This document shows positions 8,988 to 25,507 of a stretch of 28,458 nt of DNA, one piece after another. The stretch is from a virus, in the IMG/VR virus record IMGVR_UViG_3300029923_000089, positions 1 to 28,458 of that record. The stretch is one strand, 5' to 3'. Position numbers and translations under genes: made by a program. Under the pieces are notes generated by a model. That model had not been told where the DNA came from and did not search any database. It saw only the letters and a program-made list of their open reading frames with translations. Within the stretch, counting starts at the first letter, position 1. The number at the start of each line of letters is the position of its first letter.

Positions 8988-9290
8988 ATGGAAAATACAG
9001 AAGTTGTTTTTATTAAAGAAGTTATTTGTAAGGCTTTTTGTCTTACAGATACAGATTTAAGCAAGAAATGCTCACAGGCTCCTTATAAAATGGCGCAATA
9101 TATGTTTTGTTATTTTGCTTATAATGCAACACTTAACAAGTATGCCTTAAAGGAATTAATAGGTGTTTCACATGTATATTCGGTCGATGCCTATTTACGG
9201 AAACATGATAGTATGCTTACAAATGCTACTTATAAAAAAATATCAATCAAAATAGAAGCAAAATTAAATGAAATTCAGCATAACAATTGA
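8988..9290 (+). CDS. DnaA domain-IV-like DNA-binding protein
   Basis: The 100-residue protein resembles the C-terminal DNA-binding domain of DnaA alone. VICKAFCLTDTDLSKKCSQAPYKMA parallels the DnaA helix preceding the basic loop, and LKELIGVSHVYSVDAYLRK parallels the IG...HTTV...K helix-turn-helix. No ATPase domain is present. It may bind DnaA-box-like sites or regulate replication. Its 3' end overlaps the next gene by 23 bases. Confidence 0.6.
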   Translation: MENTEVVFIKEVICKAFCLTDTDLSKKCSQAPYKMAQYMFCYFAYNATLNKYALKELIGVSHVYSVDAYLRKHDSMLTNATYKKISIKIEAKLNEIQHNN

Positions 9291-9903
9291 AGGTAAAAAG
9301 TCGATTCAGTCTATACAGAATGAATTTGCAAACCAGCTATCCTACAAAGAGATTCAGAAAACAACAGCATTTGCACTGAACACAACGGCAAGGCGTGTCA
9401 TTGCAATGGCTAAGAAGGATGCTAAGAAGGAGTATACAATCAATAGCAAATACATTGGTCGTATTGCAGATCTAACTAAACCGGCTAAAGGAACAGTGGA
9501 TGGATTATATGCAGCTGTTAGTTATTCTTACAAGACTGTTCCCATGGTAGGATTCAATTTCAAGGAGTCCAAGAGTCGAACAGGTAAGAGAGGATCCGGC
9601 TTTATCATGATAGAGATAAAGAAAAGTAAGAACCAGATCCTTAAACATGCTTTTGTTGCTTCAATGGCAAGTGGACATAAGGGCATATATGCGGCAGGGA
9701 GTTATAAAGGATCAAAGTTTATCCATGACAAAGTGAAGACAAGCACAGGTAAGCAACGAGTAACAGAAATGAAAGGTCCGTCGTTCTCTACCATGGCTGC
9801 AAATAAGAACACACAAGCACACGTAACGACTTATGTTGAGAAGAACCTTCCGTCACGATTGAGGGCATTGCTTCAAAACAAAGTTAACAAATTAACTAAA
9901 TAG
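9268..9903 (+). CDS. Minor tail protein Z-like (tail completion)
   Basis: The 211-residue basic protein has an ALNTTARRVIAMAKKDAKKEYTI region (57% helical-looking) and a C-terminal VEKNLPSRLRALL helix, the pattern I know from lambda gpZ-like minor tail proteins. Length is close to lambda gpZ (192). In lambda, Z maps after the head-tail connector gene; here it lies before the terminase, which is unusual. It starts inside the DnaA-like gene. Confidence 0.6.
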   Translation: MKFSITIEGKKSIQSIQNEFANQLSYKEIQKTTAFALNTTARRVIAMAKKDAKKEYTINSKYIGRIADLTKPAKGTVDGLYAAVSYSYKTVPMVGFNFKESKSRTGKRGSGFIMIEIKKSKNQILKHAFVASMASGHKGIYAAGSYKGSKFIHDKVKTSTGKQRVTEMKGPSFSTMAANKNTQAHVTTYVEKNLPSRLRALLQNKVNKLTK

Positions 9904-10089
9904 GTTGTACGCACTGGGGGTATAAAAGGTACTGTACGGCCATAGTTAATGCAGGCAGCCGCACCCCCGTTTTCAATTTAGATATGAAAAATTAATCATA
10001 TACGCACCTGAATTTTAATACAATATTAACGCGAGAGTGAATGTTGCGTACATATACGCACATCAAAAATTAAATACGCAAAAAACAAA
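9904..10089. other. Non-coding stretch with TACGCA repeats, candidate cos/packaging site
   Basis: This 186-base gap lies immediately upstream of the small terminase gene. It contains TACGCA at 9908, 10001, 10055 and 10075, plus an inverted copy TGCGTA at 10045. The 10045-10060 pair forms TGCGTA-cata-TACGCA. GGGGGT (9916-9921) and ACCCCC (9963-9968) can pair around a GC-richer centre. The downstream genes are of the lambda Nu1/A type, whose cos lies just before them and carries repeated small-subunit sites. Cos is therefore a reasonable inference; a promoter operator is the alternative. Confidence 0.45.
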
Positions 10090-14066: not shown

Positions 14067-14577
14067 AAAACCATTGAAACAGATTGTTCTTATTTTGAGT
14101 AGCCAATTTATGAAAGAACACCCGCGTTCAGGTGAACCAACGTATTTCAGGGAAAGTATTTTATTACGTGTTAAAGACGGTGAAATGCCATTTATAATGG
14201 ACGACGGAACTGCCTTATTTCCCAAAGAGCATACCTGCCGGGCGGATTATGAAGGCTGGGTTGATAAAATAGAACAGGTTAACCTGGGTGAAGCTGTATT
14301 GAGGGTTGTTTGTTGGAGTGGAATTGCTTATCGTTCGAAATGGAAAGACATTATAACTCTAAAAAAAGATGACGGCGTAGGAGTTCAGAAACTAACCTTC
14401 CATAATTCGCTTGTCGGTTTCCCACGGGTAGATAATGACGGTTCTATAACTGCACTTATTCCGAATCGACTTGCAAACAATGACGGCTTGGATATTAAAG
14501 ATTTTAAATCCTGGTTTAAAGGATATGATTTAAGTAAACCGCTTGCAATTATTCAATTTACTAAATTCAGATATTGA
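14044..14577 (+). CDS. ASCH/PUA-like domain protein
   Basis: The 177-residue product has FRESILLRVKDGEMP, WVDKIEQVNLGEAVLRVVCWSGIAYRSK and the C-terminal ANNDGLDIKDFKSWF... IIQFTKFRY. This block order is what I recall from ASCH-like phage proteins, where a conserved DG...F..WF and IhfT.frY close the beta barrel. ASCH/PUA-fold proteins bind RNA or act on modified nucleosides. It lies one base before the second radical SAM gene, so a joint nucleic-acid-modification role is possible but unproven. Confidence 0.6.
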   Translation: MKNNLPIEKPLKQIVLILSSQFMKEHPRSGEPTYFRESILLRVKDGEMPFIMDDGTALFPKEHTCRADYEGWVDKIEQVNLGEAVLRVVCWSGIAYRSKWKDIITLKKDDGVGVQKLTFHNSLVGFPRVDNDGSITALIPNRLANNDGLDIKDFKSWFKGYDLSKPLAIIQFTKFRY

Positions 14578-14578
14578 T

Positions 14579-15685
14579 ATGAAAAAGAAATTTTATTTTG
14601 AAAATGAAGATGCTGAAACGGCACATTCAGAAGAATACTTTCGGGAGATAATGAAAGAAGAAGGATTGAATGAATTAAAAGTCCTTGAAGCAATTCCGGT
14701 ACCACATTCAAAATCAGATTTTGTTTATTGCATGGAAGCTGATACTTGTTATGAAAAATCAGATTGTGGAAAACAATGTGAATCATACAAACCAGATAAT
14801 GGTAAAAATGGCAAGTGCGAGTTCCGTGGTCAATATTGCGATTTTGGAGAAGAAGTAGTATTTAATAAAAAAATTAAAAGCTTCAAAGGTAAGGCTATTT
14901 ATAACCCTAGCGGGAAAGCCGGTGAATATAGTTATTGGGCATGTAATTTTTACAAAGGTTGTTCAAATGGTTGTACTTATTGCTATCTGAAAAAAGGAGT
15001 TTTAGCTCAAGCAATGGGAGGTGATAAACCGGAGCTGAAATCCTGCTTTAAAAATGAAGAAAACGCACTTGAAATATTCAAGAAAGAAATTTTACAAAAT
15101 AAAGAAGATTTACAAAAACATGGTTTGTTCTTTACATTTACCAGCGATCCTTTTCTGAAAGAAACAATTGATCTTACACACGACGCAATTGGAATTTGTC
15201 AGTTCAACGAAATACCTGTTAAAGTTTTGACTAAAACAACATGGTGGGTTGAAGACTTACTTCTTGACGAAGATACTTACAAAGATCATAGAAAAGATTT
15301 AATTGCATATGGTTTTACTTTGACAGGACATGATGAATTAGAACCCAATGCTTCAACAAATTTACAGCGCATACAAGCAATGAAGGAACTTCACAATGCA
15401 GGATTTAAAATCTTTGCAAGTATTGAACCGATTGTTGATTTCGTTTCTGCAAAAAATATGATAGGATCAACGCTTGAATTTTGCGATTTATATAAAATTG
15501 GTTTAATGTCAGGTAAAAAGTATGACGTTGTAGAAGCACAGAGTTTTGTAGAATGGCTAAATGATTTATCTAAACAACCTAAAATATATCTGAAAGAAAC
15601 CCTTCAAGAGCTAACACATTATACAAATGAAGAGTTAGATTTTAATTTTGTTAATCGGGATTATAATATGTTCACTGGGGTATGA
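14579..15685 (+). CDS. Radical SAM protein, spore-photoproduct-lyase-like
   Basis: The ATG at 14579 follows the previous stop by one base and is preferred to an upstream TTG. In the 368-residue product a cysteine-rich N-terminal region (C51, C57, C63, C67, C80, C87) could hold a metal site. The radical SAM motif CSNGCTYCY (C128, C132, C135) follows. FTFTSDPFLKET and FKIFASIEPIVDF are typical of the SPL-like/Rv2578c branch. It probably binds 4Fe-4S and SAM; substrate is unknown. It ends the accessory block before the terminator. Confidence 0.85.
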   Translation: MKKKFYFENEDAETAHSEEYFREIMKEEGLNELKVLEAIPVPHSKSDFVYCMEADTCYEKSDCGKQCESYKPDNGKNGKCEFRGQYCDFGEEVVFNKKIKSFKGKAIYNPSGKAGEYSYWACNFYKGCSNGCTYCYLKKGVLAQAMGGDKPELKSCFKNEENALEIFKKEILQNKEDLQKHGLFFTFTSDPFLKETIDLTHDAIGICQFNEIPVKVLTKTTWWVEDLLLDEDTYKDHRKDLIAYGFTLTGHDELEPNASTNLQRIQAMKELHNAGFKIFASIEPIVDFVSAKNMIGSTLEFCDLYKIGLMSGKKYDVVEAQSFVEWLNDLSKQPKIYLKETLQELTHYTNEELDFNFVNRDYNMFTGV

Positions 15686-15732: not shown

Positions 15733-15760
15733 AAAGCTACCTCAAAAGGGTAGCTTTTTT
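15733..15760 (+). terminator. Intrinsic terminator after the cargo block
   Basis: AAAGCTACC (15733-15741) pairs with GGTAGCTTT (15749-15757) around a seven-base loop and runs into a T-tract to 15760. This is a standard Rho-independent terminator. It ends transcription from the packaging/cargo genes just before the late promoter module. Confidence 0.9.
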
Positions 15761-15773
15761 AATATTGCAAAAA

Positions 15774-15831
15774 CTCAAATCAAACTCAAATCAAACTAAA
15801 TTGAAATAATGAATTAAGAGGTTTATTTTTG
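15774..15831 (+). promoter_or_regulatory. Late promoter module, copy 1 (of 82-bp repeat 15753-15834)
   Basis: Two tandem 11-mers CTCAAATCAAA (15774-15784, 15785-15795) precede TATTTTTG (15824-15831), which fits the Bacteroidota -7 consensus TAnnTTTG. A TTG lies 20 bases upstream of that box (15801-15803), a plausible -33 element in this copy. The 11-mers would sit at about -64 to -43, where an activator would bind. The gpW gene starts 41 bases downstream of the box. The same module recurs at 23679-23760. Confidence 0.75.
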
Positions 15832-15871
15832 TTGCCTAAGATACTGATTAAACTGATTTGAACGAATAAGA

Positions 15872-16075
15872 ATGGCCTATACACAGTTACAACTTGATAA
15901 ACTCACGGATGCTATTGCATTGGGAGCTACTACTGTAAGGTATGGTGACAAAGAGATTGTCTACCGTTCTATTAAAGAAATGAAGCTGATTAAACAGGAA
16001 ATGGAAGCTGATTTGGGAAAGAATGTAAAAACTGTCAATAGAAAATTTGCAGAATATGGCCGTGGATTCGAATAA
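15872..16075 (+). CDS. gpW-like head-tail joining protein
   Basis: At 67 residues it is nearly the size of lambda gpW (68). The pattern AVxxGxxxVRYGDKEIVYRSIKEMKLIKQEMEADL matches the gpW fold (helix, beta-hairpin, helix). It would plug the portal after packaging and provide the tail attachment surface. The position between large terminase and portal is exactly that of lambda W. It is the first gene after promoter module 1 and overlaps the portal gene. Confidence 0.85.
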   Translation: MAYTQLQLDKLTDAIALGATTVRYGDKEIVYRSIKEMKLIKQEMEADLGKNVKTVNRKFAEYGRGFE

Positions 16076-17510
16076 AGTAAAATTAAATCTACTGGACAGA
16101 ACTGTAGCCTGGATAAATCCACGTGAAGGAATGCGAAGACTTCAGGCTAGGCGAAGTTATGAAGCTGCACAATACGGTCGAAGAAATAAAAGTATGAAAG
16201 GTGCAACCTCCAATGGTCCAAATGTGGAGATTGGAGTTGCACTTCAGACATTGAGAAACAGAAGTAGGAGTTTTGTACGTAACAACGGTTGGGCAAAGAG
16301 AGCATTGGGCGTAATAATTACCAACACGGTAGGCGAAGGAATAAGACCGGCTCCAACAAGTGGAACCCGGAACCAGATAAAGAAAATTAAACAGGTTTGG
16401 AAACATTGGGCTGAAAGTACCGAATGCGATTGGGACGGAAATAATACTTTTTACGGATTACAGCAGTTGATCATGTCTGAAATTTCGGAAGGTGGAGATT
16501 GTCTGATTATCCGGAGACGTGTAAAACCTACCAGGTTTAATCCGATCCCCATTAAAATACAAGTATTAGAAGGAGATCAGCTGGATCACCAGAAAAACTT
16601 TATAAATGAAGAAGGATATTGCAGGTTAGGAGTGCAGTTCAATAAAGAAGGTTTAAAAACCGGATATTGGGTATGGAGTTCAAACCCAAATGATATGGCT
16701 GTTAACTGGACCGGTATTCAGTCCGAACTTATTTCAATTGATGACGTTCTGCAACCTTTTGAAGTATTACGGGCCGGACAAGTAAGAGGAGTTCCAAGTG
16801 GTGTTTCTGCTTTCATGAAAATGTCCGATTTCAGTGACTATGAAGATGCGCAACTCATGCGGCAAAAAGTAGCTGCAGCTTTTGCAGCTTTTGTAAAAAA
16901 TCACGAGTTCAAAGTAGGAGAAGATACAGATTTAACTGAGCATATTGAACCGGGTATCATACAATACCTGCAACAAGAAGAAGAGATTATATTTTCAAAT
17001 CCACCGGCAGCGGACGGTTATGGAGAATACTCAAAGAAAATTTTGCAGGGTATTGCAGCCGGATACGAGATAACATATGAAATGCTTACCATGGATTACA
17101 GCAACGTGAACTTCACAAGCGGTCGAATGGCAAAGATAGACGTTAGCGGACGTTTTAGGAAGCTTCAGTATAACTTAATGGTACCACAGGTTTGCGTTCC
17201 TATCTGGAGGTGGTTTATGGATTCATTAGTTATGGTTGGTTTGACAGGTGTTTATGTCGATTGTGATGCAAGTGACTGGACAGCTCCAAGAGTTCAGCAA
17301 CTGGATCCTGTAAAAGAAACAAATGCACGAATCGCACAGATTTCAGCTGGGATAACTACCTGGAGTGAAATAGTACGGGAAGACGGACGCGACCCTGACG
17401 AGTTCTTAGAAGAAGTGAAATTAGAGCGTAAGAAAATGGCAGATGCCGGGATAAACTTTACGAGTGTCGTAATGGCACCTGTTGAAGCAAAGGTAAACGA
17501 GAATGTATAA
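16056..17510 (+). CDS. Portal protein (lambda gpB family)
   Basis: The ATG at 16056 gives 484 residues; a TTG nine bases upstream is possible. The N-terminal half has ARRSYEAAQYGRRNKSM, SFVRNNGWAKRALGVIITNTVGEGI and LIMSEISEGGDCLII. The stem/crown part has GEYSKKILQGIAAGYEITYEMLTMDYSNVNFTSGR. These are hallmarks of the lambda-type portal. It forms the dodecameric ring through which DNA enters and leaves. The stop is followed by a short gap and an inserted anti-defence gene. Confidence 0.93.
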   Translation: MAVDSNKVKLNLLDRTVAWINPREGMRRLQARRSYEAAQYGRRNKSMKGATSNGPNVEIGVALQTLRNRSRSFVRNNGWAKRALGVIITNTVGEGIRPAPTSGTRNQIKKIKQVWKHWAESTECDWDGNNTFYGLQQLIMSEISEGGDCLIIRRRVKPTRFNPIPIKIQVLEGDQLDHQKNFINEEGYCRLGVQFNKEGLKTGYWVWSSNPNDMAVNWTGIQSELISIDDVLQPFEVLRAGQVRGVPSGVSAFMKMSDFSDYEDAQLMRQKVAAAFAAFVKNHEFKVGEDTDLTEHIEPGIIQYLQQEEEIIFSNPPAADGYGEYSKKILQGIAAGYEITYEMLTMDYSNVNFTSGRMAKIDVSGRFRKLQYNLMVPQVCVPIWRWFMDSLVMVGLTGVYVDCDASDWTAPRVQQLDPVKETNARIAQISAGITTWSEIVREDGRDPDEFLEEVKLERKKMADAGINFTSVVMAPVEAKVNENV

Positions 17511-17534
17511 AATATAACCAATAATTTTATTAAT

Positions 17535-17846
17535 ATGAATTTTGGAATTGCAATTGAAGCTTTAAAAGCTGGTAAAAGAGTTAGTAGACAGGGTTGGAAT
17601 GGAAAAGTAATGTTTGTTTTTATGCAAGTTCCTTCGACTATCCATAAAGATATTGTACCAAAAATGCAATCTCTACCTGAATCAGTAAAAAAAGAATTTG
17701 TAAGAAGATTCAATGATACTTCTGAACAAATTGACGCTATTTATTATAACAACCAATTAGCAATTGTTGGTTTAAGTAATCTTATTTCAGGTTGGAATCC
17801 TTCAACTTCTGACGTATTATCTGAAGACTGGACAATTTTAGATTAA
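17535..17846 (+). CDS. tad2: Tad2-like anti-Thoeris protein (DUF2829)
   Basis: The 103-residue protein begins MNFGIAIEALKAGKRVSRQGWNGK and ends WNPSTSDVLSEDWTILD, the two conserved ends of DUF2829. DUF2829 proteins include Tad2, shown to sequester the cyclic-ADP-ribose-type signal of Thoeris defence as a tetramer. A central insertion (about 38-75, PSTIHKDIVPKMQSLPESVKK) enlarges it relative to the shortest members. It sits as a single-gene insertion between portal and capsid genes. Function follows from the family, not from direct proof here. Confidence 0.85.
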   Translation: MNFGIAIEALKAGKRVSRQGWNGKVMFVFMQVPSTIHKDIVPKMQSLPESVKKEFVRRFNDTSEQIDAIYYNNQLAIVGLSNLISGWNPSTSDVLSEDWTILD

Positions 17847-17851
17847 TTATT

Positions 17852-19903
17852 ATGCCAAAAACAAAGCAATTATTAATCGGTGTACAATACAGGGCACAAG
17901 CTCAGGTAGTACAAAACAGCTTTAATACAGAAGCCGGAACATTTGATATCACGTTTGCAACTGAAACTCCGGTACTCCGGTGTAATTGGGATGAAAACTA
18001 TTCTGAAGTTTTGCTTTGTGATAAGAAAAATGTCCGTATGGGACGTGTAGATGCAGGTATTTCACTTCTTGACAGTCATCCGGATAGATTCAACCCTGTT
18101 GTAAAACCTGAAAATGTAATGGGTAAAATTTCAAATGTACGATTTGAAAATAAATCCATGGTCGGAACTGTCACTTTAGGAGCACAATGCAGCGATGCAA
18201 CCCGTGCAGATTTAATAAGTGGAATTCTTGATACATTCTCTGTTGGTTATTCCATATATAAAGGAATCAGGGAAGAAGATACAGTTACCAATACAGTAAC
18301 TTACAAAATGACAGACTGGGAGCCAAACCATGTTGCCATTGCGCCTATACCAGCGGACATAAACTCCACTATGCGGAGCAATGATACTAATCAAAATACT
18401 TTTTTCATTGAAAATAATTTAAAAAACGAAACAAACATGTTTAAAACCATTGAAGAAATCAGAGCCGGTGGTACTGCTGAAGATAAAAGCCGTATCGAAG
18501 CTATTGTAGGCATTTGCCGTTCGGCACAATTGGACGATGCTCGCGCTATGGAGCTTTTCAGCACTGAAAAGACACTTGACGCAATTCGTTCGGAAAATCC
18601 GGCAAAAACACCTGTAAATGTTGTGAATATCGAAGGAATCAGAAGCCAGGCTACAGCAGATCGCAGGATCCGTTTAGACTCTATTCTGAAAAGTACACGA
18701 GCTGCAGGAATGGAAGATTCCAGGGCCATTGATTTTTTCAATGGAGAAAACACAGTTGAAGAAATACGTCAATCTGTTATTGACGATTTTGTAAAAAGAG
18801 ATCCTAAACCTGCACCTCATATTGGTGATACAGGAGCTGAAAAGAAAGTACGTGGTATTGAAAATGCTATGTTGCACCGTTCAAATCCTTCCATTTTCAA
18901 ACTTGAAGAAGGTGGTAATGAATTCCGTGGAATGAGTTTACTGGAAATCGGAAAAGAGATTCTCGTTGGTCAAGGTGTGAATGTCCGTGGAAAAGATAAG
19001 CAAGAGATTGCTCAATTGATTATCATGGGCCAACAACGTGATATGTCAACTTCTGATTTCCCATTGATTCTTGAAAACGTGTTGAACAAATCGCTTCGTG
19101 CTGACTATCAACTTGCAGAAGAATACTGGGGAATGATTTCGCGTGAAACTTCCGTGAATGATTTCAAGGCAAAGGCCATGTATCAGATTGATTCTTCCAA
19201 CGGTATGAAAAAGTTACCAGAAGGTGATGAAATCAAATATGGTAGCATGAAGGAAGCAAAACAAACTATTGCAGTGGAAACATTTGCAGAAGGTTTGATC
19301 TTGACCCGCAAAATGATTATCAATGACGACATGTCAGCATTCGAACGTATTCCACAGAAATTTGTTACGGATTGGGATTTGTTACGTGGTGATATGGTTT
19401 GGAACATGTTAACTGCCAATGTCAAAATGGACGACGGGAAAACATTATTCCATGCTGATCATGCCAATCTTTCAGGTTCCGGCTCAGCATTGAGCGAAGC
19501 TTCTTTAACTGCTGCAGTTCTTGCAATGAAAAAACAAACTGGAATTGCTGGAAAGACATTACGCGTTGTTCCTAAATTGCTGGTTGTATCTCCTGAAAAT
19601 GAAATCACAGCCCGTAAATTACTGGCAGTTATCGCACCAACACAATCGTCAAGCGTAAACGTGTTTTCAACTATGAATATCACGTTAATTGTTGAACACC
19701 GGTTAAGTGGAAACGCTTGGTTCCTGGCTGCTGATCCTGCTGCCATTGACGGTCTGTATCATGCTTATTTGAGCGGTAACGGAGGTTTACGTGCTAATCG
19801 TGAAGATAATTTCAATACTCAAGGTATTAAATTCGCTGTTGCAGCTGAGTTTGGTGTCGCTGCTATTGATTATCGTGGGTGGTATAAGAATGCAGGTCAA
19901 TAA
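17852..19903 (+). CDS. Prohead protease-major capsid protein fusion
   Basis: The 683-residue product joins three parts. Residues 1-175 are an HK97-type protease with H76 (LLDSHPDRF), S130 (DTFSVGYS) and H160 (EPNHVAIAPIPAD) as likely catalytic residues. Residues 196-330 are a helical, scaffold-like region with two similar copies (EIRAGGTAEDKSRIEAIVG and GIRSQATADRRIRLDSILK). Residues 340-683 are a Mu gpT-like capsid domain ending in VAAEFGVAAIDYRGWYKN. Met196 (18437), after an A-rich leader-like stretch, is a possible internal start. The protease would process the shell during maturation. Confidence 0.9.
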   Translation: MPKTKQLLIGVQYRAQAQVVQNSFNTEAGTFDITFATETPVLRCNWDENYSEVLLCDKKNVRMGRVDAGISLLDSHPDRFNPVVKPENVMGKISNVRFENKSMVGTVTLGAQCSDATRADLISGILDTFSVGYSIYKGIREEDTVTNTVTYKMTDWEPNHVAIAPIPADINSTMRSNDTNQNTFFIENNLKNETNMFKTIEEIRAGGTAEDKSRIEAIVGICRSAQLDDARAMELFSTEKTLDAIRSENPAKTPVNVVNIEGIRSQATADRRIRLDSILKSTRAAGMEDSRAIDFFNGENTVEEIRQSVIDDFVKRDPKPAPHIGDTGAEKKVRGIENAMLHRSNPSIFKLEEGGNEFRGMSLLEIGKEILVGQGVNVRGKDKQEIAQLIIMGQQRDMSTSDFPLILENVLNKSLRADYQLAEEYWGMISRETSVNDFKAKAMYQIDSSNGMKKLPEGDEIKYGSMKEAKQTIAVETFAEGLILTRKMIINDDMSAFERIPQKFVTDWDLLRGDMVWNMLTANVKMDDGKTLFHADHANLSGSGSALSEASLTAAVLAMKKQTGIAGKTLRVVPKLLVVSPENEITARKLLAVIAPTQSSSVNVFSTMNITLIVEHRLSGNAWFLAADPAAIDGLYHAYLSGNGGLRANREDNFNTQGIKFAVAAEFGVAAIDYRGWYKNAGQ

Positions 19904-19913
19904 TCTGTATACT

Positions 19914-19950
19914 GATTTACACAGATTGAATAAGGATTTACACAGATAAG
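19914..19950 (+). repeat. CACAGAT direct repeat after the capsid gene
   Basis: GATTTACACAGATT (19914-19927) and GATTTACACAGATAAG (19935-19950) are near-identical units 21 bases apart, starting 10 bases after the capsid stop. The same two-unit arrangement with the same 21-base period follows the tube gene at 23014-23050. It resembles dispersed CACAGAT repeats seen in Bacteroidota genomes. Confidence 0.8.
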
Positions 19951-19958
19951 AAAAAACA

Positions 19959-19982
19959 GTGAGTGGATGAAAGTCCGCTCAC
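19959..19982 (+). terminator. Hairpin after the capsid gene (attenuator-like)
   Basis: GTGAGTGGA (19959-19967) pairs with TCCGCTCAC (19974-19982), with one G-T wobble and a six-base loop. It is followed by A-rich rather than T-rich DNA, so it is more likely an mRNA stabiliser or weak attenuator than a full terminator. It rules out the upstream ATG at 19967 as start of the next gene. Confidence 0.5.
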
Positions 19983-19999
19983 ATAAAAAAATAAACAGA

Positions 20000-20329
20000 A
20001 TGAAAAATTACATTTGCGAAGGCGATCGAATTCAGAATACAGCTCCTGCAGGCGGAATAACTTCCGGAGACTTGCATTTGATCGGTTCAAAAGTAGCAGT
20101 AGCAATGACAACTGCAGCAGAAGGTGAAACTTATGTCTCATTGACAGAAGGTGTTTTCGAAGTGCCAAAAGCAACCGGTGCAATTACTATCGGTGCAAAG
20201 GTATACTTTGACAGTACTGCTAAAAATGTAACCACAACAGCTACAAGTAATACATTGGTTGGTTGGGCTTACACAGCAGCTGCTAGTGGTGACGCTACTG
20301 TTCAAATCAGTATCAACGAAAACGTGTAA
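20000..20329 (+). CDS. DUF2190 capsid decoration-like protein
   Basis: The ATG at 20000 is chosen (109 residues, MKNYICEGDRIQN) because the earlier ATG lies within a hairpin. The sequence has GGITSGDLHLIGSKVAVAMTTAAEGE and SLTEGVFEVPKATGAITIGAKVYFDSTAKNV, the DUF2190 pattern of small beta proteins that follow the capsid gene. They are thought to act as capsid cement. The stop overlaps the next start (TAATG). Confidence 0.85.
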   Translation: MKNYICEGDRIQNTAPAGGITSGDLHLIGSKVAVAMTTAAEGETYVSLTEGVFEVPKATGAITIGAKVYFDSTAKNVTTTATSNTLVGWAYTAAASGDATVQISINENV

Positions 20330-20679
20330 TGAGCGTATTTGACGACATCCAGCAGATTGTATTTTCGGGCACGCAATCAGTGTTCGGAGATACGGCTGTT
20401 TGGACACCGTCGGATTCATCTATTGCGCAAACTGAGAAGGTGCTTTTCAATTGTCCAACAGAACCTGTTTCAATTGGAAGTAGTGACAGGTATGAATACA
20501 GACCATATAAATATTGGTTTGAGTACTCTATTAATCAATTTCTAAATTTAAAAACATTGGTTGATAACGGAAACGTACAATATCTCATTGTAAAGGGTTA
20601 TAATCTCGTAATAAAAGAAGTTAATACCAAATTTGATGGTCAGACTTATATTGCGTATGCTGAATTAAACAATGATTAA
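20329..20679 (+). CDS. Head-tail connector, gpFII-like
   Basis: The 116-residue product (MSVFDDIQQIVFSGTQSVFGDTAVW) has the shape of lambda gpFII-like connectors: a short N-terminal helix, then a beta barrel (NVQYLIVKGYNLVIKEVNTKFDGQTYIAYAEL). The position after the decoration protein matches. It overlaps both neighbours. Sequence similarity is weak, so position carries much of the call. Confidence 0.55.
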   Translation: MSVFDDIQQIVFSGTQSVFGDTAVWTPSDSSIAQTEKVLFNCPTEPVSIGSSDRYEYRPYKYWFEYSINQFLNLKTLVDNGNVQYLIVKGYNLVIKEVNTKFDGQTYIAYAELNND

Positions 20680-21166
20680 CTACGAACAACTGGAGATTGA
20701 TATTTCCGATTTGCTTTGTCCTAAATTGGTAGATACGGACGAGAATATAACTGAATTAAATACCATTTACCTGGCAAAACCTTTGCCGGACAATGAAGCG
20801 GAGTATCAAAAGAATTTCACTAAGCCGGCTGTTTATGTTATTTGTACGAATTCTGATTATGATAGTCCGGAAAGTACAGACATTATTATTCAGAATGAAA
20901 CTGTCAATTTTGAAATCCTGTTACGAAGTAAAACCAGAAAAGGACCTTCAGGTATTTTTGCCATTATCAGTGATATTAAAACAAAATTATTAGGGTATAA
21001 ATTTCGTGGATTCACAAAAATAAAGTTGATAAAAAACGGATATATTGATTCAGGTACCCAAAACGACTGGAATTATATGATCAGTTTTTCAACCTCAATT
21101 AAAGCCATTGAGAATTTACCTGAACCGGTGGTCCCAACTTTCAAAAAAATTGATACCAATGGATAA
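20672..21166 (+). CDS. Mu gp37-like tail terminator
   Basis: The 164-residue product begins INYEQLEIDISDLLCPKL and contains FTKPAVYVICTNSDYDSP and NETVNFEILLRSKTRKGPSGIFAIISDIKTKLLGY. This layout is typical of the Gp37/DUF1834 family that precedes the sheath in Mu-like phages. It probably caps the tail tube and joins it to the head. It overlaps the next small gene by 8 bases. Confidence 0.75.
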   Translation: MINYEQLEIDISDLLCPKLVDTDENITELNTIYLAKPLPDNEAEYQKNFTKPAVYVICTNSDYDSPESTDIIIQNETVNFEILLRSKTRKGPSGIFAIISDIKTKLLGYKFRGFTKIKLIKNGYIDSGTQNDWNYMISFSTSIKAIENLPEPVVPTFKKIDTNG

Positions 21167-21317
21167 GTACACAAATCAACATGGTATTATATCATTTACT
21201 GATAATGGAAAAGATTATATTTTCGATAAAGGTGAAACGATAGAACTGCCAGACACAAGTTATGTAAAATCCCTTGTAAAAAAGGGATATGTTATTAAAC
21301 AAAAATCCAAAAAATAA
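21159..21317 (+). CDS. Small protein in Mu gp38 position
   Basis: The ATG at 21159 overlaps the previous gene and gives 52 residues (MDKYTNQHGIISFTDNGKDY). The central KGETIELPDTSYVKSLVKKGYVI resembles the short DUF2635-type proteins found between gp37 and the sheath in Mu. The call rests mainly on size and place. Function in Mu-like phages is unclear. Confidence 0.6.
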   Translation: MDKYTNQHGIISFTDNGKDYIFDKGETIELPDTSYVKSLVKKGYVIKQKSKK

Positions 21318-21318
21318 A

Positions 21319-22494
21319 ATGAGTGATACTTTTTTACATGGGGTTGAAACAATTACCTCACCACAAATAGCACTTGTAAACACGGTGAAGACTGCTGTTA
21401 TAGGATTGATTGGAACTGCTGCAACCGGAGATACTGATAAACTGATATTGTGTGCTACTGAAAAGGACGACACTCAGTTTGGTTTGTTGGGTACCATTCC
21501 GGAAGCATTAGCTATTATCCGGTCGATCACAAAGAAAACAGGTGCAACAGTGTTAGTAGTTTCAGTTGGGACCGGAACACCTACACCGGTAGCTGCTGAT
21601 TTTACAGGTTCAGTCACTGACGGAGTTCGTACAGGGCTTAAATGTTTTGAAACTGCATTCAGTCAGTTCGGATTTAATGCCAAGGTGTTTATTGCACCTC
21701 GATTTACCGGCTTGTCAGGTGTTGCAGCAGCATTGACAACTTCAGCTAATCAGTTCAGGGGTTGTGCTTATCTGGACGCTCCAACGGGCACTACTGTCAG
21801 CGGAGCAATAGCGTTGCGTATTACTGCGGGACTTTGGGCATCTACTTCAACCCGTGCCATGCTTTATTATCCCGGACTTAAAAACAGTACAGGTACAGTA
21901 GTTCCACTATCTACATATGCGGCTGCAATACGGGCAAAAGTAGATGCAACAAGTGAAACAGCAGGTGGAGGATTCTGGGTAAGTTCCTCGAATAATACCA
22001 TTGACGGAATCACCGGACTTGAAACGGAACTGACAGCAGCTATTAATGATCCGACAACAGAAACGAACTTATTAAATGCTTCCGGAATTACAACCGTATT
22101 TAATAACTATGGTGCTGATTTCAGGTTATGGGGAAACCGTAACTCTTCGTTTCCAACTGAAACCGGAGCATTGACTTTCGAGTGTGGACAAAGAACAAAG
22201 GATATTGTAGACGAATCAATTGAACTGGCCATGTTGCCATATATTGACAAGCCAATTATCCAGGCTTATATTGACCTGGTGCGTCAGACTGTGAATAATT
22301 ATTTTAACGGACTTATTGCGCGTAAGGCTTTACTGGAAGGTAGCCAATGTACATACGATCCTGCAAAGAATTCAACTGAAGAACTTGCAAACGGACATGT
22401 AGTATTTACAACCGTGTACATGTTCCCAACACCAGGTGAACGGATCACCTTCGACAATTACATTGATACTTCATTACTTTCTAATCTGAAATAA
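21319..22494 (+). CDS. Tail sheath protein
   Basis: The ATG at 21319 directly follows the previous stop; the product has 391 residues, close to P2 FI (396). It has HGVETI at the N terminus, a VKTAVIGLIGTA strand, and the C-terminal DIVDESIELAMLPYIDKPI...QAYIDLVRQTVNNYFNGLIARKAL region typical of contractile sheath proteins. This is the main evidence that the virion is a myovirus. Confidence 0.93.
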   Translation: MSDTFLHGVETITSPQIALVNTVKTAVIGLIGTAATGDTDKLILCATEKDDTQFGLLGTIPEALAIIRSITKKTGATVLVVSVGTGTPTPVAADFTGSVTDGVRTGLKCFETAFSQFGFNAKVFIAPRFTGLSGVAAALTTSANQFRGCAYLDAPTGTTVSGAIALRITAGLWASTSTRAMLYYPGLKNSTGTVVPLSTYAAAIRAKVDATSETAGGGFWVSSSNNTIDGITGLETELTAAINDPTTETNLLNASGITTVFNNYGADFRLWGNRNSSFPTETGALTFECGQRTKDIVDESIELAMLPYIDKPIIQAYIDLVRQTVNNYFNGLIARKALLEGSQCTYDPAKNSTEELANGHVVFTTVYMFPTPGERITFDNYIDTSLLSNLK

Positions 22495-22496
22495 TC

Positions 22497-23015
22497 ATGA
22501 GCTTAGTAATATCAAAAGTACAGGACGCTAACGTTTATATTAACGGAACGTCGACACACGGACAAGCGTCTGAAGTGTCATTACCTGAAATTCAGTTTTC
22601 AAAATCTGAATACAAGGCTCTTGGTTTGATTGGCTCGTTGAAGTTTTTCAATGGAGTCGACGCACTGGAAGCAACCATTAAGTGGAATTATCCGGACAAT
22701 GACGTACAAGTTGCGTGTGCGAACCCGCGTAAGGCCATTGAACTAATGGTAAGGAGTAACAAGACCGTGTACACCAATGGAGACGTAACAGACGAACAAC
22801 CTGTTGTTGTTTATTTGCGTGGTACCTCAAACAATCATGGACTGGGAGCATTCAAGGCCAAAGAAGATACGGACCTGTCAACTAAATTTGATATTTCGTA
22901 TATCAAAGAAGAAGTGAACGGGCGTGCCATTGTAGAATTGGATATCATCAACAACATATTCCGAATTGACGGAGTTGATCAGTTGGCTGCTTATAAACAA
23001 AATCTTGGAATTTGA
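22497..23015 (+). CDS. Major tail tube protein (P2 FII-like)
   Basis: The product has 172 residues, equal in length to P2 FII. It starts MSLVISKVQDANVYINGTS and includes EVSLPEIQFSKSEYKALGLIGSLKFFNGVDALEATIKW, as in FII tube proteins, with C-terminal VELDIINNIFRIDGVDQLA. It forms the inner tube inside the sheath. It lies two bases after the sheath stop; its own stop falls inside the second CACAGAT repeat pair. Confidence 0.93.
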   Translation: MSLVISKVQDANVYINGTSTHGQASEVSLPEIQFSKSEYKALGLIGSLKFFNGVDALEATIKWNYPDNDVQVACANPRKAIELMVRSNKTVYTNGDVTDEQPVVVYLRGTSNNHGLGAFKAKEDTDLSTKFDISYIKEEVNGRAIVELDIINNIFRIDGVDQLAAYKQNLGI

Positions 23016-23050
23016 TTTTCACAGATTAAAGATTGATTTTCACAGATAAG
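23014..23050 (+). repeat. CACAGAT direct repeat after the tube gene
   Basis: GATTTTCACAGATT (23014-23027) and GATTTTCACAGATAAG (23035-23050) repeat with a 21-base period, matching the pair at 19914-19950 except for A/T at one position per unit. The first unit overlaps the tube stop codon. A strong terminator-type hairpin follows within 3 bases. Confidence 0.85.
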
Positions 23051-23052
23051 AT

Positions 23053-23086
23053 AAACCATTCCGGCACAATGTCCGGAATGGTTTTT
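23053..23086 (+). terminator. Strong hairpin terminator after the tube gene
   Basis: AAACCATTCCGG (23053-23064) and CCGGAATGGTTT (23073-23084) form a perfect 12-bp stem with an 8-base loop, running into a short T-tract. It lies between tube and chaperone genes. Since the next gene has no visible promoter, partial read-through is likely and would lower expression after the abundant tube protein. Confidence 0.85.
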
Positions 23087-23113
23087 AATCCTAATAAATT
23101 AAATAAAAATACT

Positions 23114-23476
23114 ATGCCCGAAGAAAAATATTTTAAAAGAAAAATAAACGAAGGTACTATAAAGCGTACTCATTTATGTTCGTTTGATAAGAAAATTAAA
23201 CTCGATATGATTGTTCAGAGCGGAAAGAAAACGGTTGAATATATCATGAAATTACAAGCAAAAGAAGTTGCCACTGACAAAAAAGTTAATTCAACCAACG
23301 ATGCTGAAGAAAATTTTAGAAAACAACTTTCAAGTGTTAGAATAAATGACCTTCCTGTTGTTTATGAAGATTTAATAAACAGTTTCGACGATGAAGAGAT
23401 TCTTGAAGTGATCACTTTCATTAACGACGGTGATATGTCTGATTATGGAGGGAAGAAATCACCAAAAAACGCATAA
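23114..23476 (+). CDS. Tail assembly chaperone, short form (gpG-like)
   Basis: The ATG at 23114 is chosen because earlier ATGs lie within the terminator hairpin. The 120-residue, charged protein starts MPEEKYFKRKINEGTIKRTH and lies between tube and tape measure, the place of lambda G or P2 E. The last codons contain the slippery sequence A AAA AAC, so some ribosomes shift to the longer form. It would coat the tape measure during tail assembly. Confidence 0.75.
   Translation: MPEEKYFKRKINEGTIKRTHLCSFDKKIKLDMIVQSGKKTVEYIMKLQAKEVATDKKVNSTNDAEENFRKQLSSVRINDLPVVYEDLINSFDDEEILEVITFINDGDMSDYGGKKSPKNA
23447..23470 (+). promoter_or_regulatory. -1 programmed ribosomal frameshift site
   Basis: The heptamer A AAA AAC (23464-23470) is in the correct phase of the chaperone frame (CCA AAA AAC). 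GGAGGG (23447-23452) lies 11 bases upstream, the distance at which an internal Shine-Dalgarno stimulates -1 slippage in E. coli dnaX. GGTGAT (23429-23434) could also pair with ATCACC (23458-23463) next to the heptamer. The -1 frame is open from 23443 to 23658, so slippage adds 62 residues. Confidence 0.85.
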
Positions 23477-23658
23477 TCCCGATTGACGATGTTATTTTTT
23501 TAGCACACTATACCGGATCGGGAATAAATGAAGTATTAAAGTATGACGTTGAATTTTATTATAAATGTTTGGATAGCGCAGCCGAACAATATAAACTGGA
23601 ATTAAACGTACAAAACTCACCAAAAGAAGTCATTATACTGGGATTTGCCAAAGAATAA
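23464..23658 (+). CDS. Tail assembly chaperone, frameshift extension (gpGT-like)
   Basis: This frame is -1 relative to the chaperone and has no good start codon of its own. Expressed by slippage at A AAA AAC, it gives a 181-residue fusion. The extension includes RIIPIDDVIFLAHYTGSGIN, VLKYDVEFYYKCLDSAAEQYK and ends IILGFAKE. A short helical extension reached by slippage is the arrangement of gpGT-type T domains, which bind tape measure protein. Confidence 0.8.
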   Translation, partial: KKRIIPIDDVIFLAHYTGSGINEVLKYDVEFYYKCLDSAAEQYKLELNVQNSPKEVIILGFAKE

Positions 23659-23660
23659 TT

Positions 23661-23686
23661 AAGCCACTTTAACCGGTGGCTTTTTT
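23661..23686 (+). terminator. Intrinsic terminator before the tape measure gene
   Basis: AAGCCAC (23661-23667) pairs with GTGGCTT (23676-23682) and the T-tract continues to 23686. The stem sequence differs from the terminator at 15733, but its T-run likewise begins the shared 82-bp module. It separates the head/sheath block from the distal tail block. Confidence 0.88.
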
Positions 23687-23699
23687 AATATTGCAAAAA

Positions 23700-23757
23700 C
23701 TCAAATCAAACTCAAATCAAACTTAATCAGAATAACAAATTAAGAGGTTTATTTTTG
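23700..23757 (+). promoter_or_regulatory. Late promoter module, copy 2 (of 82-bp repeat 23679-23760)
   Basis: The tandem 11-mers CTCAAATCAAA (23700-23710, 23711-23721) and TATTTTTG (23750-23757) are identical to copy 1 and at the same spacing. The only differences are six substitutions within the 14 bases at 23724-23737, where copy 1's TTG (-33) becomes TCA. Loss of a -33 box but not of the 11-mers implies activator dependence. The tape measure gene starts 31 bases after the box. Confidence 0.75.
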
Positions 23758-23788
23758 TTGACTTGCAAATTTACATAGAAAATAAAGT

Positions 23789-25507
23789 ATGGCAGACGTT
23801 ATGAAACTTGGTTTAATTCTATCGGCAACGGACAAAATGTCCCGTATTGTTGACCAAGCCATGGGAAAGTCATTCAAATCTATGAGTAATTTTCAAAAGA
23901 GATCAAAAGCAATTGGAGGTTCATTACAGAAGTCTGGAGCCGTTATGATGGCAGCTGGAACAGCAATAGCCGGTGCTTTATTCGCAAATTTCAATGCAGT
24001 AAATGAAAAAGCAAAAGAAGTACAGTTCACCTCTCAAAAAATAGGATTATCAACTGAAGAATTTCAAAAATTAAGCTATGCTGCAAAGAGAAGTAATGTA
24101 AGTGTAGAACAATTTCAAGTCGGTATGGGAAAGCTTTCTAAAACTATGGTATTGGCAGCACATGGAGAAAAGGCTTCTCAAAAAATCATGTCTATGATGG
24201 GTGTCAGCGCAAAAGATAGTAACGGTAAACTAAAAACGACTGCAAAAGTAATACAGGAACTTTCCGATAAATATAAAAATGCAAAGGACGGACCTACAAA
24301 GGTTGCATTAGCCATGTTGGCATTTGGTAAATCCGGAAAGGATATGATTCCAATGCTCAATAAAGGAGGTAAAGCAATTGAGGATTTAGGAAATAAATTC
24401 AGAAAATCAAATGCATATTTATCACGTGAAAATATAGCAGCATTTGGTAAATACAGAGCTTCAGTAGCCAATACAAAACTTCAACTTGACGGATTAAAAA
24501 ATCAAATAGCCATTTCCACACTTCCAACAGCTATAAAGTTAGCTGATAAAATATCAAAGTTAGCTGATAAATTTGGAAACTGGATAAAAAGAAATCAAGA
24601 TTTATTTTCAACTTTAGTAAAAGTAGCGTCAGTAATTGCGGGGCTACTTATTGTTATGGGGGCATTTAATGTTGTTTCAGGAACGGTAATTAAGTTTGTT
24701 GGAACGGTTTCAAAAGCAATGAGTCTAGCTAAAAACTCCATGTTGCTTTTCAAAATTCAATATTATGCATTAGCAGCGGCTCAAAAAGTATCTGCTATGT
24801 GGACGGCCATAACAACTTCAAGTGTATGGGCATTCACGGCTGCATTACTTGCAAATCCAATCACGTGGGTAGTTATTGGTATTGTTGCATTGGTAGCAGG
24901 ATTGGTATTGGCATGGAAAAAGTTTGAAGGATTCAGGGCAGCGGTAAAGACTACCTGGGCAGTTGTGAAGGGATTTGGAAACATATTAAAAGAATACGTA
25001 CTTGACAGGATTAAAGGCATCATATCCGGATTGGGTTCAATGGGAAGGGCTATTGGATTATTATTCAAAGGTAAGTTTGCAGCAGCCGGTAAAGAAGCTT
25101 TAAAAGGAGTTAAGGACTTATCCGGATATTCTGCTGCTGAAAATGCAATGAAGAAAACAGTTAAGTTAACTCAAAATATAAAACCTACCTTTTCAAAGAT
25201 ACTTGCACAAGAAAAAGCGATTGTAAAAGACAAGGAAAAAGCAACCGTACAAGCGCATAAAGAATCAAAGGTTGTTCAAATACACTCAACTAATAAAAGA
25301 GATACAGTCAAAACAGTTGCTACAAATAGTACTGTTAACTCAAATGCTCCAGTTATTCATTATGCTCCAGTTATTCATTTGAATGGTGGAAGTTTGACAG
25401 ATAAGGCTGATTTTATGAAATTATTGAAAGATAATCAAAAAGAATTTGAGCAATTTTTAAAAAAAATAGCAGGAAATAATCAAAGAATATCATACCAAGC
25501 TTTATAA
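23789..25507 (+). CDS. Tail tape measure protein
   Basis: The 572-residue product has the TP901-type start (KLGLILSATDKMSRIVDQAMGKSFKSM) and the KIGLSTEEFQKLSYAAKRSNVSVEQFQVGMGKL block. Two hydrophobic regions (276-298 and 346-376) could help DNA pass the host membrane, and the C-terminal part is basic. At about 1.5 A per residue, it predicts a short tail of roughly 85 nm. It is the first gene after promoter module 2. Confidence 0.93.
   Translation: MADVMKLGLILSATDKMSRIVDQAMGKSFKSMSNFQKRSKAIGGSLQKSGAVMMAAGTAIAGALFANFNAVNEKAKEVQFTSQKIGLSTEEFQKLSYAAKRSNVSVEQFQVGMGKLSKTMVLAAHGEKASQKIMSMMGVSAKDSNGKLKTTAKVIQELSDKYKNAKDGPTKVALAMLAFGKSGKDMIPMLNKGGKAIEDLGNKFRKSNAYLSRENIAAFGKYRASVANTKLQLDGLKNQIAISTLPTAIKLADKISKLADKFGNWIKRNQDLFSTLVKVASVIAGLLIVMGAFNVVSGTVIKFVGTVSKAMSLAKNSMLLFKIQYYALAAAQKVSAMWTAITTSSVWAFTAALLANPITWVVIGIVALVAGLVLAWKKFEGFRAAVKTTWAVVKGFGNILKEYVLDRIKGIISGLGSMGRAIGLLFKGKFAAAGKEALKGVKDLSGYSAAENAMKKTVKLTQNIKPTFSKILAQEKAIVKDKEKATVQAHKESKVVQIHSTNKRDTVKTVATNSTVNSNAPVIHYAPVIHLNGGSLTDKADFMKLLKDNQKEFEQFLKKIAGNNQRISYQAL

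Follow-up and report, generated by a model that had tools for sequence, protein, structure and literature searches.

The viral contig IMGVR_UViG_3300029923_000089 (28,458 bases, analysed at its full length and hereafter called the window) encodes a phage gene set whose terminase and portal are of the lambda type, whose capsid protein is a fusion and whose tail is contractile, with sheath and tube. It carries two copies of an 82-bp module on the plus strand, one opening the head block and the other opening the tail block. At both sites the order is terminator, then predicted promoter, then structural gene, and the features of the two sites are as follows (nt, nucleotides).

15733-15757, + strand: intrinsic terminator 1, a 10-pair stem and then a T-run, behind the upstream radical-SAM gene (folding z = -4.0)
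15753-15834, + strand: module copy 1, the predicted head promoter, from pairwise copy comparison; 83 nt (15756-15838) identical in the related phage L021
15774-15784, + strand: 11-mer unit 1, CTCAAATCAAA, at about -62 to -52 from the predicted start
15785-15795, + strand: 11-mer unit 2, CTCAAATCAAA, at about -51 to -41 from the predicted start
15795-15805, + strand: degenerate third unit, ACTAAATTGAA, in register and overlapping the -33 region
15800-15803, + strand: -33-like ATTG of the head copy, 20 nt before the -7 box, a 3/4 match to TTTG
15824-15831, + strand: -7 box TATTTTTG of copy 1, fitting TAHHTTTG; predicted transcript start 15836-15837
23661-23682, + strand: intrinsic terminator 2, an 8-pair stem and then a T-run (folding z = -4.0)
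23679-23760, + strand: module copy 2, the predicted tail promoter, from pairwise copy comparison
23700-23721, + strand: the two exact 11-mers of copy 2, from an exact-match search
23750-23757, + strand: -7 box TATTTTTG of copy 2, fitting TAHHTTTG; predicted transcript start 23762-23763

The head and tail copies align without gaps and match at 76/82 bases. Their six mismatches (15798, 15802-15804 and 15810-15811) fall within a 14-nt span, for which random placement of six differences gives P = 2.5e-4, and they cluster on the -33 region, leaving the 11-mers and the -7 box untouched. The flanks of the two copies are unalike (23/60 matches upstream and 17/60 downstream), and a repeat finder stretches the repeat to 89 nt at 91% (15749-15837 and 23675-23763). 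The T-run of each terminator is the start of its module copy, and the two stems, of 10 and 8 pairs, are unrelated in sequence. The original prediction had already described the coordinates, length and identity of the copies, the clustering of the six differences, and the start of each copy in the T-run of an unrelated-sequence terminator, and all of these were reproduced. It had further stated that each copy holds two exact 11-mers with an identical -7 box and opens a structural block; both statements were upheld, with TATTTTTG at equal offsets in the two copies and the blocks being those of the gpW-like/portal genes and of the tape measure. Comparison of the module DNA with cultured phages gave no meaningful match.

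Exact copies of CTCAAATCAAA occur in the 28,458 bases as four units only, two per module copy, and a search for the tandem 22-mer with up to 3 mismatches allowed (<=3) found it nowhere else in the record, apart from overlaps. A third, degenerate unit stands in register in both copies (ACTAAATTGAA in the head copy and ACTTAATCAGA in the tail copy), so the array is longer than first noticed, and in both copies the period-11 autocorrelation has the lowest P value that 300 dinucleotide shuffles can give (P = 0.003). The two modules, which lie 7.9 kb from each other and carry the same 11-mers, have the form of a shared operator at dispersed late promoters, as in the Mu C/Mor arrangement. Replication iterons would be an array beside an initiator gene or an origin; the exact units here are confined to the two promoter modules. 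When 84,980 bacterial and archaeal genomes were searched with the exact 22-mer, three matches were obtained (two cyanobacteria and one alphaproteobacterial metagenome-assembled genome), which lack promoter context and were taken as chance. Two wider operator patterns were also discarded: ACTCNNNNCAAACTCNNNNCAAACT gave 32 viral stretches that, beyond relatives of the window, L021 and the L028 phage (see below), were unrelated sites, and TTAAGARGTTTATTTTTG gave only the relatives already found plus chance sites.

Bacteroidota sigma-A promoters carry a -33 TTTG about 19-21 nt upstream of the -7 box. Both module copies fit the -7 consensus of this group, TAHHTTTG, perfectly, and the tail copy has ATCA in place of TTTG at the -33 position. 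The polymerase of this phylum uses TAHHTTTG, starts 4-5 bases downstream of it and tolerates a poorly conserved -33, with AT-rich motifs upstream instead of a strong -33 (PMC6847099). The predicted leaders of about 27-36 nt match the usual Flavobacterium length, and the anatomy as a whole supports a predicted promoter of the host sigma-A type at each module. Since TANNTTTG alone is unremarkable in the AT-rich window (42 found vs 37 expected), it is the combination of elements, not TANNTTTG by itself, that sets the modules apart. Two other readings of the same DNA were dropped: an RNA leader or antiterminator was rejected, as the folding is not unusual (z = 0.3 and -0.2), and intrinsic curvature was unsupported, the bend of the array in a crude wedge model falling at the 17th and 56th percentile. 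The host is probably a member of the Bacteroidota, because the window encodes a DUF4494 protein, which we take to be of a Bacteroidota family, and has an AT-rich genome and Bacteroidota-type -7 boxes; we infer it in this indirect way because a portal-profile search of the same 84,980 genomes found no relative of the phage.

The exact tandem 22-mer is present in nine viral stretches, most of them from the same phage species; the match in L006 has a different context and is a chance one. The informative relative is a different phage, L007/L021, with DNA 79-88% identical to that of the window over the aligned parts. Its head module (in L021) is unchanged at 83/83 nt (15756-15838), although the DNA downstream is 86.6% identical and the DNA upstream is unrelated cargo that ends in a different terminator. 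The chance of an 83-base unchanged run at 13% divergence is about 1e-5, which argues that the head module is under constraint or has been exchanged as a unit. Judged from these alignments, the module is real and constrained, because the head copy is letter-identical in L021 despite diverged downstream and unrelated upstream DNA. In the window, the region upstream of the head promoter includes a radical-SAM/SPL-like gene (14543-15685), and this region is swapped for the unrelated DNA in L021 exactly up to the T-run of the module.

A terminator-like hairpin with a T-run stands before gpW in L015, L017, L025, L028, L034, L037 and L039, and the more distant relatives show the hairpin followed by a promoter-like gap before gpW, with otherwise different upstream sequence. 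In L028, seven 11-bp units of the ACTCTCCCCAA type lie at the same place, between the terminator and TAATTTTG, and 39 bases separate the last full unit from the -7 box, vs 29 in the window, a difference of about one helical turn. Periodicity at lag 10 was not significant in L017 and L025 (P = 0.09 and 0.21). In L017, L028, L030, L034 and L035 the tape-measure gene follows its neighbor too closely for a promoter to fit between them, and the tail copy was therefore most likely produced by duplication of the promoter into an older terminator position in the lineage of the window. In L017 (17570-17610) and L028 (10960-11010), a terminator-like hairpin with a T-run directly precedes the tape-measure gene and is accompanied by no tail promoter; these hairpins possibly tune the dosage of the tape measure.

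The original prediction had also called for a co-conserved small gene for a DNA-binding protein, and one was found, syntenic in relatives and with a predicted DnaA domain IV-like fold:

8988-9290, + strand: candidate late activator, a stand-alone DnaA domain IV-like protein of 100 aa (Pfam, AlphaFold/Foldseek and synteny)

The gene is the last before the late genes, at the early/late junction, where it overlaps the start of the gpZ-like gene, and its orthologues stand just before the gpZ-like gene in L015, L017, L032 and L037 too. Four of five family members match Bac_DnaA_C, the DnaA C-terminal helix-turn-helix family in Pfam (best 1.9e-5); the window protein alone has a weak single-sequence score (0.089). 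Bac_DnaA_C matches nothing but the candidate gene in the window record and in those of L015, L028/L032 and L037. The AlphaFold model has a predicted local distance difference test score (pLDDT) of 91 and a predicted template modelling score (pTM) of 0.83, and its best PDB matches by Foldseek are DnaA domain IV on DnaA-box DNA (3pvp and 1j1v; template modelling score (TM) 0.81-0.86, root-mean-square deviation 1.5). The predicted structure and the family matches both point to a stand-alone DnaA domain IV fold, as expected of a GafY-like activator. BFVD matches to the candidate have E values of about 2e-4 to 7e-3 and TM up to 0.87. The cultured Nonlabens phage P12024L holds a DnaA-C protein, whose gene is unmarked in its annotation and has no operator link made to it.

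Between the window and L015 the candidate is the fastest-diverging conserved gene, with 36% identity vs 67% for the gpZ-like protein, 59% for TerS, 81% for TerL and 85% for the portal. Over a short distance it is conserved, at 97% protein identity in L110 within a stretch of 89% DNA identity. Fast divergence of the candidate together with the lack of 11-mers in L015 would show the pattern expected of a protein/operator pair. L110 (IMGVR_UViG_3300028853_000061) is itself a rearranged 11.7-kb element that combines the 97%-identical candidate with the gpZ-like gene, capsid pieces and a tail gene; one of its ends resembles a transfer-messenger RNA (tmRNA) 3' end, and it is perhaps a prophage remnant or satellite keeping the activator. 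As a rearranged prophage-like contig without modules, it is uninformative as a test of the activator/module pairing.

We favor, as a somewhat probable reading, that the modules are paired late promoters of the host sigma-A type, served by a phage activator that binds the 11-bp direct repeats and is most likely the 8988-9290 protein. The identity of the activator, taken on its own, is a close question that we place slightly on the doubtful side. Both modules would be read via TATTTTTG by host RNA polymerase that carries the primary sigma factor of Bacteroidota. The terminators would insulate both blocks, and because each module sits directly behind a terminator, each downstream block would rely for its transcription on the promoter that precedes it. 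Between about -63 and -31, the 11-bp direct repeats would form a same-face array of asymmetric half-sites for the phage-encoded activator, which would replace or reinforce a -33 contact that is weak in the head copy (ATTG) and missing in the tail copy (ATCA). We suppose that the 8988-9290 protein is made at the end of the early region, that its monomers bind successive 11-mers side by side on one helix face, and that the bound protein recruits or holds the sigma-A RNA polymerase at both operons at once. With both blocks insulated in this way, head and tail genes would rise together upon the appearance of the activator. The partial -33 of the head copy may permit some basal head expression, and the tail copy, which would have arisen when a duplicate of the head promoter entered the terminator site that precedes the tape-measure gene, may depend more strictly on the activator.

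Several observations weigh against this proposal, and the idea of the original prediction, a phage-coded activator that coordinates the head and tail operons, was supported only in part. The original prediction had made the presence of the 11-mers at these positions in related phages a test of itself, and the outcome is split: L021 has them before its structural operon, but most relatives, for example L015, L017, L025, L034 and L037, lack them, and L015, with a portal of 85% identity, keeps the -7 half as TTAAGAAGTTTATTTTTG with the 11-mers gone. The units of L028 and those of the window may be alike (ACTC....CAA) by chance, because a CCCCAAACT-type array as in L028 also occurs in the unrelated GC-rich phage L111, as seen in a search for CTYTCCCCAAA arrays. 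The paired head and tail modules stand in the window, which has both copies, but among the lineages compared, only that of the window showed the tail copy. Loss of the -33 as a sign of an activator likewise fared only in part: the -33 does differ between copies that keep their 11-mers, but the sign is a weak one, since weak -33 elements are common and poorly conserved in Bacteroidota generally (PMC6847099) and ATTG-N20-TATTTTTG (3/4) persists in the head copy. As to the candidate, the co-change of protein and operator rests on one phage pair, stand-alone DnaA-C proteins are widespread in phages, mostly without an assigned role, and some of them may serve replication.

Two alternatives are serious. 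One retains the operator and promoter architecture and assigns the activation to another phage or host protein. The early region has many small genes without assigned function and is incomplete in the window, which leaves room for such a protein, yet across relatives no other small helix-turn-helix protein was found in synteny at the early/late junction, and no conserved gene diverges faster than that of the candidate; we regard another activator as possible but doubtful. The other alternative dispenses with an activator: ordinary sigma-A promoters would suffice, the A-rich 11-mers being UP-like or merely AT-rich and the second copy being a duplication that keeps a strong promoter. The perfect -7 box agrees with this, as do the generally weak -33 and the upstream AT-rich motifs of the phylum (PMC6847099), the ATTG-N20-TATTTTTG retained in the head copy, and the -7 region without 11-mers in L015. 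An AT-rich element would, however, need no exact 11-bp repeat that is letter-identical in L021 and between the copies; moreover, the bend of the array is ordinary in the wedge model, and it is the -33 that changed between the copies while the 11-mers did not. We consider activator-independent promoters unlikely.

The two remaining explanations detach the module from late control. It might be a recombination or module-boundary linker that was conserved by mosaic exchange and not for promoter function, as the non-homologous upstream cargo of L021 stops exactly at the module T-run and each of the two copies borders an exchangeable block. A linker would not be expected to include a complete, correctly spaced predicted promoter before each block, nor to confine the head/tail differences to one functional subregion, and we hold this explanation to be improbable. 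Less probable still, and the weakest of the four, is that the 11-mers are replication iterons, the DnaA-like protein an initiator, and the promoters adjacent by accident. Tandem 11-mers do occur in other phages, often at replication-linked places, and DnaA domain IV binds origins; in the window, the two arrays keep equal distances to their -7 boxes, each of which heads a structural operon, and none lies near replication genes.

The genes that surround the modules and the candidate are listed below.

9268-9903, + strand: gpZ-like minor tail/completion protein, overlapping the candidate activator gene (PF06763, 1.7e-05)
15872-16075, + strand: head-tail adaptor Ad1 (gpW-like), first gene of the head block (PHROG 2545, E = 1e-16)
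16047-17510, + strand: portal protein, lambda family (PF05136, 2.7e-88)
17852-19903, + strand: major capsid fusion protein (PF25209, 3.3e-42; PF10124, 1.9e-09)
21289-22494, + strand: tail sheath (PF04984)
22497-23015, + strand: tail tube (PF04985)
23789-25507, + strand: tail tape measure protein, first gene of the tail block (PHROG 8462, 7.8e-45)

The late region holds another duplicated element, a 46-bp intergenic repeat (83%) at 19913-19958 and 23013-23058, directly after the capsid gene and after the tail-tube gene, which consists of two GATTTWCACAGAT units 21 bp apart. A likely cos site lies at 9924-9975 of the window, where the independent contigs L013 and L023 both begin exactly at 9954. 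This position falls within a non-coding element, AAAAGGTACTGT...GCAGGCAGCNGCACCCCCRTTTTC, that separates the gpZ-like gene from TerS and is kept whole or as its right half in L015, L017, L021, L025, L032 and L037. The start of the contig (1-314) is made of 24-bp tandem repeats that encode a run of VNSGLDYS-like units.

The original prediction knew of no described late-control module of this form, a statement that was too strong, as Mu C and GafY each serve several late promoters. A single activator for several late promoters is already known from Mu C, and GafY is a known case of phage-type structural genes activated by a DnaA domain IV protein. The combination of a terminator-abutting module, a one-turn direct-repeat array, a Bacteroidota -7 box and head/tail duplication was not found in the open-licence PubMed Central (PMC) literature, nor was a described late-gene switch for host-polymerase-dependent Bacteroidota phages. 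Phage Mu C resembles our proposal in that one late activator serves several dispersed late promoters (lys, I, P and mom) and binds just upstream of the -35 region; it differs in belonging to another protein family and in working with a host polymerase that recognises sigma-70 promoters. Among the window proteins scanned against Pfam, which exclude early genes outside the window, none matched Mor/C, and the candidate family matches Bac_DnaA_C. With the Bacteroidota sigma-A (sigma-ABfr) promoters, TTTG/TAnnTTTG, both copies share the -7 box, and the head copy has a -33-like ATTG (3/4) at spacing 20; the modules stand apart by their tandem 11-bp direct repeats (-63 to -31) and by the lack of a -33 in the tail copy. 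Other stand-alone 'DnaA C-terminal domain' phage proteins have the same fold as the candidate and are annotated only as replication-initiator domains, whereas for the candidate we propose a link to late promoters.

The nearest parallel is found in gene transfer agents. GafY is a DnaA domain IV homologue that acts via RpoD domains 3-4 to turn on the gene-transfer-agent operon of Caulobacter together with about 18 accessory promoters, and its promoters have a degenerate -35, a consensus -35 making the activator dispensable (PMC9632790, PMC11150451); in Rhodobacter, the DnaA-like N-terminus of GafA is likely needed at the structural promoters (PMC9638019). By analogy, the candidate system would share with these a DnaA domain IV-like protein, a phage-type structural operon, degenerate -35/-33 promoters and one activator for several promoters. 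The differences are that GafY and GafA belong to Alphaproteobacteria (Caulobacter and Rhodobacter), that GafY acts far upstream (-123 to -113) with IHF while its partner GafZ adds antitermination, and that no tandem 11-bp array is reported for them in the literature covered. The proposed switch comes with an operator defined at the sequence level, a pair of target promoters and a single named candidate protein. More generally, and tentatively, some stand-alone phage DnaA domain IV proteins may be Bacteroidota late-gene activators that act on one-turn direct-repeat arrays between a terminator and a host -7 box, array and activator co-diverging faster than other late genes and thereby keeping late control phage-specific. 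If the proposal is true, a function would be found for one class among the numerous small 'DnaA C-terminal' proteins of phages, and the GafY principle, in which the DNA-binding domain of DnaA is re-used as an activator of structural genes, would reach beyond gene transfer agents.

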